The notes under the pieces were generated by a model. It was given only the letters and a program-made list of their open reading frames with translations, was not told the origin of the DNA and searched no databases. The position numbers were made by a program, and so were the translations under genes. A stretch of 64,000 nt of DNA from Pseudohongiella sp. O18 (lineage in GTDB: Bacteria > Pseudomonadota > Gammaproteobacteria > Pseudomonadales > Pseudohongiellaceae): NCBI RefSeq assembly GCF_021729085.1, contig NZ_JAJSAR010000001.1, positions 1,178,001 to 1,242,000 of the forward strand. The letters are read 5' to 3'. Below, in pieces: positions 14,483 through 20,239 of the stretch (its first letter is position 1; each line of letters starts with the position of its first letter).

Positions 14483-15940
14483 ATGCTTTATGTAGTACGT
14501 TTTTTTCCAGAAATGACCGTCAAATCACGACCTGTGCGTATGCGACTGGTCAAGGCGCTGCGCCGCAATCTGCGCATTATCCTGCAGCGACTGGATGAGA
14601 AGATTTCTGTGGTTGGCAATTGGGACATTCTGGAAGTTGATACCGGGGACCTGGACCAGGCGCTGGAAAGCGGCGTCCTTGATGCATTGCTGAGCACGCC
14701 GGGCATATCAGTGGTAAGGCCTGTGGAGAAGCTCCCGCTGCCGGAGAGCATCGAAGAAATTGCAGAGTCTGTGCTGCTGCACTATCGTGGTGCATTGGCC
14801 GGAAAAACCTTTGTGGTGCGCTGCAAGCGTACCGGCACGCATGACTATTCATCCGGCGATATCGAGCGTCAGGTGGGTGGGTATCTGTTGCACAACAGTG
14901 ATGCTAAAGGGGTAGACCTAAATAATCCCGAGATCACGGTTCGAGTCGAAATCCGTCACAAGGTTCTTTACGTCGTCAAAGAACAGATCAATGGCCTGGG
15001 TGGATATCCGCTGGGAACTCAGGAGCAGGTGCTGTCACTGATATCGGGCGGATTTGATTCAGCAGTTTCCAGTTTCATGACAATGCGCCGCGGCCTGCAG
15101 ACACATTTTGTTTTCTTCAATCTGGGTGGCAGGGAACACGAGTTTGCGGTGAAAGAGGTTGCGCTTTATCTATGGATGAAGTTTGGCTCTTCACATCGCG
15201 TGAAGTTTGTCAGCGTACCGTTCGAGGGCGTCGTGACGGAGATTACACAGAAGGTCGACAGCGGCCACATGGGCGTCATACTCAAACGGCAGATGCTGCG
15301 TGCAGCAGAGCGCATAGCGATTGGTATGCGGCTACGAGCACTGGTGACAGGGGAGGCGATTTCTCAGGTCTCCAGCCAGACGCTGCCTAACCTGAATGTC
15401 ATTGATCGAGTCTGCGACATGATGATCCTCCGGCCATTGATCGTCACTGACAAGCAGGAAATCATCAATACAGCCCGAGCGATAGGCACCGAGCCCTTTT
15501 CAGTGAATGTGCCCGAGTACTGCGGCGTCATTTCAGTGAAACCTACCACTCACGCCAAACGCAGCCGTGTAGAGCACGAAGAGCGTCAGATGGATCCGGC
15601 GGTGCTGGATGCTGCCATCGAAGCCAGTGAATACCAGAGCATTGACCGGGTTGTCGAGGTGCTCAACAGGCGTGATGTCGAGCCTCCAGAGTTTTCTGTG
15701 GCGCCCCCGGAGGCTGTGGTCATCGACATCCGCCACCCCGACGAGCTGGAGCGGGCACCATTTGAGCTTTCAGGTCATGAAGTGCTGCAGGTGCCGTTTT
15801 TCAGGCTGGCGAGTCAGTTTGCGACAATGCCACAGTCACGCCAGTACCTGCTGTATTGCGACAAAGGCATGATGAGTCGACTGCACGCCTCGCATCTGAA
15901 AGATGCCGGCTATGCGAATGTTGGTGTTTTCAGGCCCTAG
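14483..15940 (+). CDS. thiI: tRNA 4-thiouridine sulfurtransferase ThiI with rhodanese domain
   Basis: A 485-residue enzyme that thiolates U8 of tRNA and, in enterobacteria, also transfers sulfur for thiazole synthesis. The order is ferredoxin-like/THUMP (about 1-165), PP-loop ATPase with SGGFDS (188-193), and C-terminal rhodanese (about 405-485). Both catalytic cysteines are present: Cys347 (EYCGVIS) and Cys459 (LLYCDKGMMS), at spacing like E. coli Cys344/Cys456. The ATG follows AGAGG with correct spacing. It is divergent from glnA and shares a CTAG stop overlap with the HupE/UreJ-like gene. Confidence 0.96.
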   Translation: MLYVVRFFPEMTVKSRPVRMRLVKALRRNLRIILQRLDEKISVVGNWDILEVDTGDLDQALESGVLDALLSTPGISVVRPVEKLPLPESIEEIAESVLLHYRGALAGKTFVVRCKRTGTHDYSSGDIERQVGGYLLHNSDAKGVDLNNPEITVRVEIRHKVLYVVKEQINGLGGYPLGTQEQVLSLISGGFDSAVSSFMTMRRGLQTHFVFFNLGGREHEFAVKEVALYLWMKFGSSHRVKFVSVPFEGVVTEITQKVDSGHMGVILKRQMLRAAERIAIGMRLRALVTGEAISQVSSQTLPNLNVIDRVCDMMILRPLIVTDKQEIINTARAIGTEPFSVNVPEYCGVISVKPTTHAKRSRVEHEERQMDPAVLDAAIEASEYQSIDRVVEVLNRRDVEPPEFSVAPPEAVVIDIRHPDELERAPFELSGHEVLQVPFFRLASQFATMPQSRQYLLYCDKGMMSRLHASHLKDAGYANVGVFRP

Positions 15941-17088
15941 GACAATACCGGTACCGACAGTGACAGCGAGCGTTCCAGAAGCCACAGTACACCAAACACG
16001 GTGATGACCAGGCCGGCGGTGCCGAGCGCAAGCCGCCGGCTGAAAGTGGCCCTGCCCAGCAGGGCCAGTATTGGCACCAGCACCAGAACAATCGCGATCT
16101 GCCCCACTTCGACGCCAATATTGAAGCTCAGCAGGCTGCCAAAAAGCAGCTGTTGAGGTAGAGCGAGATCGCCCAGCACGCCGGCGAATCCAAAGCCGTG
16201 AATCAAGCCGAATATGAAGGCGAACTGCCAGGCACGTGTTCTGAACAAGGGATAGAGTATGTTGATGCCTGATATCGCCACAGATAGCGCGATGACCGAT
16301 TCCACAAATCGCCCGGGCAGGGAAACCACCTCAAGTGTGGCCAGTATCAGTGTTATGGAATGTGCGATTGTGAAAGCGGTAACAACTTTGATGACGTCGT
16401 AGAAATACGTGCTGAACGGTACATTCGCAGGTTGTTGCTGGCCGGTGGCGCCTGGAGTTTTGACCAGTACGATGGCCACCAGAAGGGCAAGCAGAAAAAG
16501 GATGTGATCCAGTCCGATCCAGATGTGCCAGATGCCCTCAATGAAAAAGGTCCATAGATATTCGGCATCTGATGGAAGTTCAGTGTCAATCTCATATGTC
16601 GCAGTGTCGGGTGAGAAAACCCTGACATAAGTCTCATCGTTGCTCCGCAGACTGAGTATGCCTCTGTGTGCAGAGTCGATGTCGAACATCAGGCTGTAAC
16701 TCAGGGTGACTTCCGCGACGCCATTGCACAGACCGGTAATCGGCAGGTGAACAAAAGGACCCGCATTCAATTGCTCGATCATCAGCGTGCCAATTTCAAG
16801 GGAGCACGGCTGGCCGTCGGACGCCATGGTGAGGCGGGAAGCTGCGTATTCTCTGATCTGTGAACGGTGCTGGCTAATTTCACCCCATGTAATGGCTGAG
16901 TCGGCGTTGCCATCCAGGCCAATTGCCAGTTCGAGGTCCTCGACGGCAATCAGCCAGTGACCCGAAACACTCTGCTGATCCAGTGAAAGGTTCAGGTAGC
17001 TGTCACTCAAGGTGTGCGCGCTGAGATTGCCCGACGCAACAAGGCACAACAGCGGCAACACAAATATGGACATCAGTCTGCGTTTCAT
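15937..17088 (-). CDS. HupE/UreJ-like membrane protein with periplasmic EF-hand-containing domain
   Basis: A 383-residue protein with a signal peptide (about 1-24), an extracytoplasmic domain (25-175) and about six or seven membrane helices, as in the HupE/UreJ_2 family. Conserved His/Asp residues sit in the membrane part: H188 and D194-H195 (IWIGLDHILF), H243 (AHSITL) and H297 (GLIHGFGFAG). These resemble metal-site motifs in HupE/UreJ nickel or cobalt permeases, but transport is not shown. Residues 59-70 (DGNADSAITWGE) form a textbook EF-hand calcium loop. It is the last gene after the DUF4331 and TPR genes, 2 bases behind the TPR stop. Its stop overlaps that of thiI. Confidence 0.85.
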   Translation of the reverse strand: MKRRLMSIFVLPLLCLVASGNLSAHTLSDSYLNLSLDQQSVSGHWLIAVEDLELAIGLDGNADSAITWGEISQHRSQIREYAASRLTMASDGQPCSLEIGTLMIEQLNAGPFVHLPITGLCNGVAEVTLSYSLMFDIDSAHRGILSLRSNDETYVRVFSPDTATYEIDTELPSDAEYLWTFFIEGIWHIWIGLDHILFLLALLVAIVLVKTPGATGQQQPANVPFSTYFYDVIKVVTAFTIAHSITLILATLEVVSLPGRFVESVIALSVAISGINILYPLFRTRAWQFAFIFGLIHGFGFAGVLGDLALPQQLLFGSLLSFNIGVEVGQIAIVLVLVPILALLGRATFSRRLALGTAGLVITVFGVLWLLERSLSLSVPVLS

Positions 17089-17090
17089 GA

Positions 17091-18308
17091 TTACCTCGCG
17101 CTGCCAGTAGCAATGAGTGTGTCGAGAGCTGCGTACTGCATGCCAGTGCTGTCCGTCCAGTCACGCAGGTTTTCTATAACGTCCTGACGCGAAGCGGCAG
17201 CTGCCGCTTCGGCCAGCAGCAAAGCATCAGAGGGCTCTTTCTGGGAGGTCCAGTTTTTCATGGCTGCCTCCAGTGCGGCTTCAGGACGGCCCTGAATGTC
17301 CAATGCGAAACGGGCAAACTCCTTAACGGGCAAATTCTCTCCTCGCCGGTAGGCAGTCTCAAAATAAACCTCCAGTTCTGCGATCAATGACTCTGCGCGG
17401 TTGCTGTTGGCCGCATCCGGTGAGGAAAGCAGTGCGTTTGTCAGCATCACGCCAAGTTCTACATTACTTGTTGGATCCGGTTCTGATCCCAGCAGCGCGA
17501 TCACGTCGCGGTATCTTTCCTGCTGGAGCAACCACTGTGCATAGTTGTTCAGCAAATAGGTGTTATCTGGCGCCATTGTCAGAGCTGCAAGGTAGTGCTG
17601 GCCAGCCATATCATTTTCACCCAGCCGGTGTGCTATTGTGGCGATCGTAATATGTACTTCCAGCAAGGCCTGGCGACTCATCGGGCGGCCGGAGTCAAGT
17701 TCCTGCGTCAGTGTGTCTAGTGCCGTATCAGCCTTGCCAGTGACCCCGTCTAGCTGTGCCTGACAGTTAATCTGGAATGCTCGCTCCACGCGGTCTACAA
17801 GTGCATCGCAGCTTTTCTGTGTCAATGGGTAGTGAGCCGTTACCAGGCCTATCTGTGCCTGAATCATTAATGCCTGTGCGTTACCTGGCTCTTCTTCCAG
17901 AACGCTACGAAGTTCATCCAGTGCAGGCGCGAATTCATGATTGTGTTGCAGCACGGCCGCAGCAATCAGCCGCAGCGACACCGGTTTGCTAACGTTGTCT
18001 GGCCACTGTTCAATGATCGCCAGCGTTCTACCGTAAGCCCTGGGATCCTGCTCGCTCAGCGCCAGTTGATAGGATCGATATGCCTGGGCGAACAACTCTT
18101 GAGGATTGTCATTGCGGCTGCCTTCAGTGGCGCGCAATTGTTGGGACATCGCCACCACTGCGCTCGGCAGGCGCGTGATGATGGTGTTGTCGTTGTCTGG
18201 TATGTACGGTGCGGCTTGAGCGGCCATGGCGCAGCAGGAAATGCCCAGCAAAAGGGTTTTTCTGAGATTTGGAGCAAAAAGTTTCTGCGCATTTCTGAAA
18301 ACCAACAT
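17091..18308 (-). CDS. Secreted TPR-repeat protein
   Basis: I place the start at 18308 (GAGGG upstream, then a normal signal peptide ending near AAQAAPYIP), not at the longer open-frame start at 18434, which overlaps the DUF4331 gene and adds 42 residues with no signal-peptide character. The mature protein of about 375 residues is almost all helical, with degenerate tetratricopeptide repeats (for example around NAQALMIQAQIG and NTYLLNNYAQWLLQQ). Such proteins usually serve as protein-binding scaffolds in the periplasm. It sits between the DUF4331 and HupE/UreJ-like genes, suggesting a shared envelope job. No enzymatic motif is visible. Confidence 0.8.
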   Translation of the reverse strand: MLVFRNAQKLFAPNLRKTLLLGISCCAMAAQAAPYIPDNDNTIITRLPSAVVAMSQQLRATEGSRNDNPQELFAQAYRSYQLALSEQDPRAYGRTLAIIEQWPDNVSKPVSLRLIAAAVLQHNHEFAPALDELRSVLEEEPGNAQALMIQAQIGLVTAHYPLTQKSCDALVDRVERAFQINCQAQLDGVTGKADTALDTLTQELDSGRPMSRQALLEVHITIATIAHRLGENDMAGQHYLAALTMAPDNTYLLNNYAQWLLQQERYRDVIALLGSEPDPTSNVELGVMLTNALLSSPDAANSNRAESLIAELEVYFETAYRRGENLPVKEFARFALDIQGRPEAALEAAMKNWTSQKEPSDALLLAEAAAAASRQDVIENLRDWTDSTGMQYAALDTLIATGSAR

Positions 18309-18362
18309 GTACCTGCCCTCGCAGCTTGAGAAGTATTCTGATGAGTTCTGAGTGCATAAGAA

Positions 18363-18394
18363 TTCGCCAGACAGGGGTGATCCTGCCTGGCGAA
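18363..18394 (-). terminator. Strong hairpin between DUF4331 and TPR genes
   Basis: The stem TTCGCCAG-A-CAGG pairs with CCTG-C-CTGGCGAA (18363-18375 with 18382-18394): 12 of 13 positions pair around a 6-base loop. It lies just past the DUF4331 stop. Only a weak T-rich stretch (TTCTTA) follows, so it may be a partial terminator or an mRNA-stabilising element lowering expression of the downstream genes. Confidence 0.6.
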
Positions 18395-18402
18395 CAGATC
18401 GC

Positions 18403-19851
18403 TTACTGAACCGCTGAACCAGGCAGAGGTTCATTCAGGTAAGGGAATGAGGTTTTAAAATCCCCTGCAGATACGGTCGTCTGATCCGTGAACGGTGCAG
18501 TTCGGTTGGGCGCTACTGCAGGATCACTGATCAGGGCGCCCATCATTACTCGCAGGGCAATGTCGACAACATCGTCACCCGGGCGGCGGCCGTTCGGGAA
18601 GCCAGCGTTGTCACCGGCCAGTACGCCCATGTTTTGCTGCTGTGACGGCATGGCAGGCGCAATGGAGGTGTTAAGCCGCAGCATCTCACTCCGCGGGAAG
18701 GTGCCGTCAGCGACTGATGCTGGCAGGTTCAGGCCAGGTACACCAACAACGGCATCTACCAGGTCACTGCGCGGTGAGTTGGTTGGAGCCACTGCACCTG
18801 CATCCTGGAACAGTACTTCCAGTAAGTAGGGCAGCGTCGGTTTTTCCACGTAGGCGGCGAACTGCGCGTCGTTGACGGGATGGCTGCTGTTGAACTTGTC
18901 CTTGTCAGGCAGGCCGATGATTACCTCGTTCACCAGTGGGAAGCCCAGGCGTGATACCTGCATGGGTTCGCCGCCGGCCATATCCAGGCTGGCAGTGGTC
19001 CATGCGCCGATAACAGGATCCTGATCAACAAGACAGTTGGTGGGGATTTCAAGCGCCAGGGAGGTGACGTTGGTATCACCAATCGGGTTGGCAACGGCAT
19101 CAGCGGCGCCAAGCGGGTTCAGGTTGACCAGGTCGAATACCTGTCCCAGATTTACTGCAAACCCTTCTTTACGCTGGCCCACAAACACGCGTCCCTGGGT
19201 CTGGCAGCCCGGAATGCTGATGGGGTAGATATGTGCACTGGCGTAATCGGCATAGTTTGGGATGGATTTGGTGCCGATATTGTCTACTGGCTTCCGGAAG
19301 GTCGTGGTTTGCGTGGTAACGTTGGTTACCGCTTGAGCGGTACCAGTCCTGGCGTTGCCGCGAATGACGTCCAGAGTATACTCCTGCCGCGAATTGACCG
19401 CGCTGGTGTCAGTTGCTCCCGGCCCGATGGCACCGGCGTTGATCAGCGGAATTGGAATGTTTTCGCCGCCGACTGGGACAGCAGCACCTGCCAGGATGGT
19501 TGAGAAATCAAAGCGAAAAGTGATGTCCTCCATGGAGTCACCGGTGTTGTCGATGTGGATCTCATAGATTCCGGCTGTCTCCAGGTCGAAATAGTTTGGC
19601 CCGCCGTAGGCCGCCTGTAGCGGAAAATAGTTGGCAATCAGGGTGATGTAGTCCTGGCGGCCAGTCTCATAACTCCTGAACATGTACAGGTCTGTGGCAT
19701 CCAGGCGGGGCAGGCCGGCAATCATGGGTGCCTCACGGTGGCTTGACGCATAGCCTAAAGCCGAGCAGCCCAGCAGTGCCGCTGTCAGAGCGCTGACCTT
19801 CAGGCGCATGTATTTGTTACTTTCTCTTGTCTTGCGGTTATGTCTTTGCAT
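18403..19851 (-). CDS. DUF4331 family secreted protein
   Basis: A 482-residue protein of the DUF4331 family, recognised by the mature start SSHREAPMIAGLPRLDATDL and by DLYMFRSYE. A signal peptide follows an unusually long polar leader of 14 residues. The upstream ATG at 19851 has the better ribosome site (GGGAG, about 6 bases away); an internal ATG at 19809 would give a standard signal peptide. No catalytic function is established for this family. It is the first gene of the DUF4331-TPR-HupE/UreJ cluster, is exported and probably periplasmic or surface-located. A palindrome lies just upstream. Confidence 0.85.
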   Translation of the reverse strand: MQRHNRKTRESNKYMRLKVSALTAALLGCSALGYASSHREAPMIAGLPRLDATDLYMFRSYETGRQDYITLIANYFPLQAAYGGPNYFDLETAGIYEIHIDNTGDSMEDITFRFDFSTILAGAAVPVGGENIPIPLINAGAIGPGATDTSAVNSRQEYTLDVIRGNARTGTAQAVTNVTTQTTTFRKPVDNIGTKSIPNYADYASAHIYPISIPGCQTQGRVFVGQRKEGFAVNLGQVFDLVNLNPLGAADAVANPIGDTNVTSLALEIPTNCLVDQDPVIGAWTTASLDMAGGEPMQVSRLGFPLVNEVIIGLPDKDKFNSSHPVNDAQFAAYVEKPTLPYLLEVLFQDAGAVAPTNSPRSDLVDAVVGVPGLNLPASVADGTFPRSEMLRLNTSIAPAMPSQQQNMGVLAGDNAGFPNGRRPGDDVVDIALRVMMGALISDPAVAPNRTAPFTDQTTVSAGDFKTSFPYLNEPLPGSAVQ

Positions 19852-19883
19852 GTTGTGCTCCCATATATGGTTGGGTCGTTGCG

Positions 19884-19897
19884 TGAGTGTTCACTCA
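19884..19897. promoter_or_regulatory. Candidate operator palindrome upstream of DUF4331
   Basis: TGAGTG-TT-CACTCA is a perfect 6-2-6 inverted repeat, 33 bases upstream of the DUF4331 start. The half-site resembles operators of some TetR-family repressors. No candidate repressor gene is adjacent, so the regulator is unknown. Confidence 0.45.
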
Positions 19898-20136
19898 AAT
19901 CCGTGTGAAAGCGTCGTCGTGTAAAATTTCTATGCTGCTTTCTTTCGGTCTTGTTCCCGGGCTTACGGCCTGGTCTCTCAGCTGGACCTGATAAAAAGTC
20001 TTTGCTTGCAAGGCAGTGTCATGATCTGTGACGTGCATCCCAGTTCGGTGAGGAAATCGACTGATTTTGTGAACTGGTTCCGGGGCGGGTAGGTGCAGCT
20101 ATTGAGCTGACTACAAACTCTGTCGCGCCAGCGTCA

Positions 20137-20165
20137 TGGTAATCAAAACTGTCGTGGTGTATAAT
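20137..20165 (+). promoter_or_regulatory. Candidate typA promoter
   Basis: A perfect TATAAT (20160-20165) lies 75 bases upstream of the typA GTG. The hexamer 17 bases upstream (TGGTAA) is a poor -35. Confidence 0.45.
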
Positions 20166-20239
20166 TCGCGGCCATTTTTACGCGTCCGCATAGGGCGCTC
20201 CAGTCCCAGCGACGCGCTCGCAACCACAGGTAATCCGCA

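Follow-up and report, generated by a model that had tools for sequence, protein, structure and literature searches.

The window analysed here, a stretch of 64,000 nucleotides from Pseudohongiella sp. O18 (RefSeq assembly GCF_021729085.1, contig NZ_JAJSAR010000001.1, positions 1,178,001 to 1,242,000 of the forward strand), carries on a chromosome of the Pseudohongiella group a leftward trio of genes at 15937-19851, encoding a DUF4331 protein, an exported TPR protein and a HupE/UreJ-2 protein. The cluster is a real, conserved and so far unnamed module. We rate the chance as marginally better than even that the three proteins act as one functional module in the handling of a divalent transition metal at the cell envelope, most likely nickel or copper. 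The features of the locus, in window positions, are as follows.

18403..19851, minus strand: exported DUF4331 protein of 482 amino acids; PF14224 at 440 bits (cut-off 27), positions 1-421 of 421
17091..18308, minus strand: exported TPR protein of 405 amino acids; weak TPR matches
15937..17088, minus strand: HupE/UreJ-2 membrane protein of 383 amino acids with an N-terminal periplasmic domain; PF13795 (HupE_UreJ_2) at 151.7 bits (cut-off 24.5)
19738..19746, minus strand: codons of the predicted mature residues Ser1-Ser2-His3 of DUF4331, a candidate X-X-His site for Cu(II)/Ni(II) (amino-terminal copper- and nickel-binding motif, ATCUN), from the family signal-peptidase pattern
16576..17016, minus strand: Ang-1-like periplasmic beta-sandwich, mature HupE residues 1-147, from His1 (codon 17014-17016), by structural match to 9GCE
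16879..16914, minus strand: EF-hand-like loop D35-x-N-x-D39-..-E46 of the Ang domain
15964..16569, minus strand: HupE/UreJ permease domain with seven predicted membrane helices (model helices 150-351; PF13795)
16504..16527, minus strand: HX5DH metal-permease motif (H164, D170 and H171, mature numbering)
19852..20239, minus strand: intergenic region between the divergent typA and DUF4331 genes, presumed by position to hold the operon promoter

The initial annotation had described three consecutive leftward genes of these families, and the open reading frames and Pfam matches confirmed families, order, strand and coordinates. DUF4331 is first in the order of transcription, the TPR gene second and HupE_UreJ_2 last, and all three proteins have signal-peptide-like N-termini. 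The open reading frame of the TPR protein opens at 18434, but the ATG at 18308 is the more likely start, so that the gene does not overlap DUF4331 and a gap of 94 bases lies between them. The ATG of HupE (17088) is found 2 bases past the TPR stop codon. The trio stands between two housekeeping genes that are unrelated to it, convergent thiI and divergent typA, and no hydrogenase or urease genes lie beside it.

Conservation of the trio was assessed on two samples. The first consisted of the 80 closest DUF4331 loci with their surroundings, taken from about 85,000 species genomes and therefore biased to close relatives. TPR and HupE genes were both present at 49 of these loci, in 47 cases on one strand in the order DUF4331-TPR-HupE, and five further loci were interrupted by contig ends. 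Carriers included Marinobacter, Alcanivorax, Psychrobacter, Burkholderiales, Tahibacter, Corallococcus and one verrucomicrobial and one melainabacterial genome. The TPR and HupE genes share a 4-base overlap (ATGA) in 33 of 48 relatives, which suggests translational coupling. The second sample comprised 370 Gammaproteobacteria genomes drawn evenly across the class, in which DUF4331 was found in 29 and the TPR family was strongly matched (E < 1e-50) in 23, 22 of them among those 29; about 2 such genomes were expected (hypergeometric p ~2e-28). The sole strong TPR match without a DUF4331 match in this sample is G146:C1:2821888-2823039. In a paired set, the TPR family occurred in 32 of 40 DUF4331-positive versus none of 32 DUF4331-negative genomes, and all three genes lay within 6 kb in 28 of the 40. 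Within Pseudohongiella, the trio separates thiI from typA in some genomes, and in the trio-positive ones tested HupE and TPR follow immediately behind thiI. Seven other Pseudohongiella genomes lack the trio, and in these glnA, thiI and typA stand side by side. The module is also plasmid-borne, in Marinobacter adhaerens HP15, a Comamonadaceae strain and Lichenicola, and each of the seven plasmid records that carry the TPR protein recurs in the DUF4331 list. The statement in the initial annotation that these families lie together in other bacteria was thus borne out: the neighbourhood survey that it had proposed found conserved co-occurrence across Pseudomonadota and on plasmids, together with a DUF4331-TPR-permease variant in Actinomycetota.

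The HupE/UreJ-2 protein matches the classical HupE/UreJ family (PF04955) at 19.2 bits, below the cut-off of 23. In its structural model (predicted local distance difference test, pLDDT, 86.7), seven membrane helices come after a beta-sandwich of eight strands, which has three helices inserted between strands 2 and 3. The His/Asp motifs that had been likened to those of nickel/cobalt permeases held up, as the HX5DH motif (H164, D170, H171) and H219, H273, E239 and E303 (mature numbering) are invariant in 19 diverse relatives. The same is true of D35, D39 and E46 of the EF-hand-like loop, and a search of the HupE profile against the PDB gave weak matches to EF-hand proteins. The mature protein is predicted to begin after an A|H junction; His1 is present in 49 of 49 trio relatives, and A or V stands at -3 in 42 of the 49. 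The best structural match of the N-terminal domain was 9GCE (VIA Z 12.3, rmsd (root-mean-square deviation) 3.1, 132 residues; Foldseek 7.2e-5, rank 3), which is the crystal structure, with copper bound, of the Ang-1 domain from a Rhodobacteraceae HupE/UreJ-2 protein (PMC12537917). Judged from the model, HupE thus carries an Ang-1-type ("anglerase") periplasmic domain, a putative metal binder. Searches by sequence gave no match to RbAng-1a at E 1 (protein) or E 10 (profile); the link to 9GCE was not recovered in this way, and the domain is therefore a distant rather than a close member of that kind. At locus L062, about 0.65 kb separates a DUF4331 gene from a roseobacter HupE that is more closely related to 9GCE (E 6.5e-27).

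Proteins of the Ang-1 type were described in 2025 as "anglerase" permeases, with a proposed role in metal capture for uptake; in vitro, Ang-1 prefers copper (dissociation constant 74 nM) over nickel (220 nM) (PMC12537917). The window protein shares with them the signal peptide, the predicted mature His1 and the beta-sandwich topology followed by a PF13795 permease domain, but it differs in its remote sequence, in the invariant EF-hand-like loop and in its tie to DUF4331 and TPR genes. With the HupE/UreJ nickel permeases of hydrogenase and urease clusters it has in common an HX5DH-type permease domain (PF13795 here); unlike these, it has an extra N-terminal candidate metal-binding domain and no hydrogenase or urease context. 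Other structural matches were zinc-binding ZrgA and PA4063, which have the same beta-sandwich fold (Z ~10) but were crystallised as stand-alone periplasmic domains, in chains without a permease domain. The system had initially been called undescribed. This no longer applies to the HupE/UreJ-2 type (PMC12537917), but it holds for DUF4331 and the TPR partner in the literature searched, where no paper on DUF4331 (PF14224) was found; neither protein is mentioned in the main text of PMC12537917.

DUF4331 is a large, strongly conserved protein with many invariant Asp, Asn and Arg residues. The predicted mature protein starts with S-S-H-R-E-A-P, and A-S-S-H-R-E-A-P is found at the end of the signal peptide in nearly all 91 close relatives. 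Applied family-wide, the rule that signal peptidase requires small residues at -1 and -3 permits cleavage before X-X-His in 91 of 91 close and 11 of 11 distant members; the -1 residue before SSH is A, G or S in all 91 close relatives. In distant members the residues preceding His often vary (A-N-H, A-D-H, S-D-H, S-H-H), and other cleavage positions score much worse, above all among these sequences. Cleavage right before the His (giving His1) was not preferred; it is permitted in the close relatives but only in 3 of the 11 distant ones. From this pattern we infer that mature DUF4331 begins with X-X-His, a candidate ATCUN site; the motif excludes proline at position 2. A free N-terminal X-X-His binds Cu(II) and Ni(II) (PMC7701195). 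The predicted X-X-His N-terminus is the feature that DUF4331 would share with ATCUN-motif proteins such as serum albumin, to which it is unrelated as a family. A model of DUF4331 was obtained with a pLDDT of 82.9 and a predicted template-modelling score (pTM) of 0.88. It led to no usable fold assignment: the best Foldseek match had E 2.7e-3 and a probability of 0.06, and the highest VIA Z, 5.7, was to immunoglobulin domains, which are unrelated. Sequence search found no solved relatives. As a chemical curiosity, the A-S-S-H-R junction (19735-19749, minus strand) resembles (S/T)-X-His sequences, which undergo nickel-assisted peptide hydrolysis.

The surroundings of DUF4331 in other bacteria point outward. 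In about 10 roseobacter loci a type II secretion system (T2SS) gene cluster with prepilin peptidase adjoins DUF4331 in place of TPR and HupE, and plasmids from Paracoccus, Marinovum and Jannaschia show the same arrangement. On the plasmids L167 (Jannaschia sp. W003, 32.5 kb), L166 and L152, the T2SS cluster encloses DUF4331 together with a small lipoprotein-like gene, and it may serve DUF4331 mainly. The C-terminal end of Adhaeribacter DUF4331 is a type IX secretion sorting domain, and the Streptomyces protein ends in a membrane-anchor-like tail, possibly with a sortase gene adjacent. The T2SS, type IX and membrane-anchor contexts are independent of each other and suggest the cell surface as the place where DUF4331 acts.

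The TPR protein of the window matches TPR families (CcmH/CycH-type TPR at 22.6 bits, TPR_14, TPR_8 and others) below the Pfam cut-offs, and its actinobacterial and Bacteroidota counterparts are far above them. Within the family (A3), C167 is invariant and C182 near-invariant, and the family occurs almost exclusively in DUF4331-positive genomes. We infer that the protein serves as a scaffold or adaptor.

In Actinomycetota the permease is exchanged. There, DUF4331 is followed by a clear TPR protein and then by a NicO permease, which belongs to a different family; the order DUF4331-TPR-NicO was found in 7 actinomycetote plasmid loci, with the TPR and NicO genes of four detected by tblastn. The NicO proteins start with A|HPLG after the signal peptide in those that are readable there, most have an EF-hand-like loop in a similar place, and the actinobacterial NicO carries a His-rich loop. 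Their best NCBIfam relative is the RcnA-type nickel/cobalt efflux family (117 bits, below cut-off). In the actinomycetote module the place of the permease is taken by NicO/RcnA transporters (PF03824), which have a His1 and an EF-hand-like N-terminal domain of their own; they are a permease family separate from HupE/UreJ and are absent from the module of the window. When the N-terminal domain of HupE is compared with that of NicO by profile, only the EF-hand-like region plus a helix align, with a low probability (11 to 33 percent), so that common ancestry of the two domains is no more than possible. At the level of function the analogy holds: a His-starting metal permease accompanies DUF4331 and TPR, irrespective of the permease family.

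Overall, the best-supported mechanism is a metal-capture relay, every biochemical step of which is a proposal. DUF4331 would be exported, probably to the surface, where a free N-terminal X-X-His on a large beta-sandwich body would bind Cu(II) or Ni(II). The exported TPR protein would be the adaptor that keeps this capture protein near the inner-membrane protein, so that nickel or copper caught outside the cell could be passed from the surface to the membrane transporter. Both HupE/UreJ and NicO are classed as nickel/cobalt permease families, and the permease classes and the preferences of Ang-1 and of ATCUN sites overlap on nickel and copper. Of the two roles initially guessed, metal handling is thus favoured by the Ang-1-type domain, HX5DH, the replacement by NicO and the predicted X-X-His, and no support was found for an envelope assembly complex.

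Several observations weigh against a metal-handling module of this kind. At 25 of the 80 DUF4331 loci neither partner is nearby; most of these loci are from roseobacters and some from betaproteobacteria. For most of the Ala-rich signal peptides of DUF4331, a crude per-sequence predictor selects another cleavage site; it is too noisy on such signals, and since it disagrees in many sequences the X-X-His start rests on the family-level pattern. Adhaeribacter (Bacteroidota) retains SSHREAP with no clear cleavage site preceding it, and the DUF4331 model shows disorder at residues 1-4, which is compatible with an exposed tail and demonstrates no site. The fold of the Ang domain is also that of zinc-binding ZrgA and PA4063, and the resemblance of the actinobacterial NicO to an RcnA-type efflux transporter makes export a possible direction of transport. 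Finally, the module is not matched by nickel enzymes: urease was present in 17 of 33 module-positive versus 12 of 32 negative genomes (p 0.32), nickel superoxide dismutase in 2 of 33 versus 2 of 32, and of 28 genomes with the full trio, 10 have neither urease nor nickel superoxide dismutase nor full-length NiFe hydrogenase. Nickel supply for one of these enzymes as the sole purpose of the module was rejected on these grounds.

A little short of an even chance is given to copper (or zinc), and not nickel, as the substrate, with the HupE/UreJ label misleading for the Ang-1 branch; this would be compatible with the metal-handling module. The missing correlation with nickel enzymes is in line with it, as are the in vitro preference of Ang-1 for copper (PMC12537917) and the ability of ATCUN sites to take Cu(II) as well as Ni(II). 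In the window's own genome, which has no NiFe hydrogenase, urease is 0.37 Mb from the trio, and urease alpha has a separate HupE_UreJ_2 paralogue at a distance of about 8 kb:

G000:C1:1557483-1557986 and 1565638-1565988, own genome, outside the window: HupE_UreJ_2 paralogue and urease alpha pair

The classing of both HupE/UreJ and NicO as nickel/cobalt permeases argues against copper. The own genome has six PF13795 matches in total, and the pairing of paralogue and urease recurs across other Pseudohongiella genomes.

Regulation bears on the direction of transport. In Marinobacter and Alcanivorax, a sigma-K-like extracytoplasmic function (ECF) sigma factor and an RskA-type anti-sigma factor are encoded upstream of the module, mostly divergently, and a TGCATC-N15/16-CGT pattern recurs by eye ahead of DUF4331. 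In L053, L056, L058, L039 and L046, TGCATC...CGT occurs on each strand of the stretch that separates DUF4331 from the divergent ECF sigma gene, and these are possibly paired sigma-dependent promoters. The genome of the window has no RskA-type anti-sigma factor and no sigma/anti-sigma pair beside the trio, so that control of the module must differ there from that in Marinobacter and Alcanivorax; a sigma-70 scan of the typA/DUF4331 intergenic region gave no match exceeding shuffles. The ECF sigma/anti-sigma pairs suggest a stress response and would suit efflux or detoxification, in which the permease exports nickel, cobalt or copper and the exported X-X-His protein sequesters the metal outside. 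So would the His-rich loop and RcnA-type relative of NicO, the lack of major nickel enzymes in many carriers, and the strong induction of a HupE/UreJ gene by excess nickel in Sphingobium (PMC5557971). The HupE/UreJ proteins tested to date mediate nickel uptake, however, as cited in PMC2667541 and PMC5557971, and capture for uptake is what was proposed for Ang-1 (PMC12537917). Efflux is a possible though rather unlikely reading, and uptake is somewhat more likely.

Still less probable is a system that makes or matures DUF4331 as an exported enzyme, with the HupE-like and TPR proteins loading its metal centre and uptake not the purpose. DUF4331 is indeed large, strongly conserved and often without a permease, and TPR proteins commonly serve assembly, to which the weak CcmH/CycH similarity could be related. 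Against this, no enzyme fold or solved relative of DUF4331 was detected, and the swap to another metal permease family points to transmembrane transport. That three unrelated exported proteins stand in a row by chance, as the unrelated flanking genes and the frequent solitary DUF4331 might suggest, is refuted by the co-occurrence statistics, the order kept across phyla and on plasmids, the translational overlap and the co-absence, and deserves practically no credence.

A few neighbouring genes were noted in other carriers. Many relatives have a small lipoprotein-like gene between DUF4331 and TPR, or behind DUF4331, which is absent in the window; three members were scanned and gave no family match. 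Examples are listed here.

L020:9466-9708, L032:9472-9720, L028:9537-9812, L150:10539-10784, L153:10595-10900, L152:10657-10881: small lipoprotein-like genes

On the Marinobacter adhaerens plasmid pHP-187, genes for alkaline phosphatase D, a metallophosphoesterase, a DUF3299 protein and a PKD-domain protein lie directly upstream of the module (L150:1578-8626). DUF4198 genes are found near DUF4331 in a Ramlibacter and a Hyphomonadaceae genome (L071:9777-10661 and L091:5226-6062); DUF4198 was reported to be a nickel-binding N-terminal-His protein (PMC12537917).

It is possible, if doubtful, that DUF4331 represents a new class of surface metal capture that crosses phyla and works with a secreted X-X-His N-terminus, a dedicated TPR adaptor and an N-terminal-His permease of the HupE/UreJ-2 or NicO family; this would be a nickel/copper relay from the surface to the cytoplasm in which no siderophore-like small molecule is required. 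The metal-handling module would take the anglerase idea of 2025 beyond single proteins, to a system of three parts in which one partner may be extracellular and the permease part is exchangeable between families while the module persists. DUF4331 is widespread, and its link to a metal permease and to a specific site (His3) makes its function testable.

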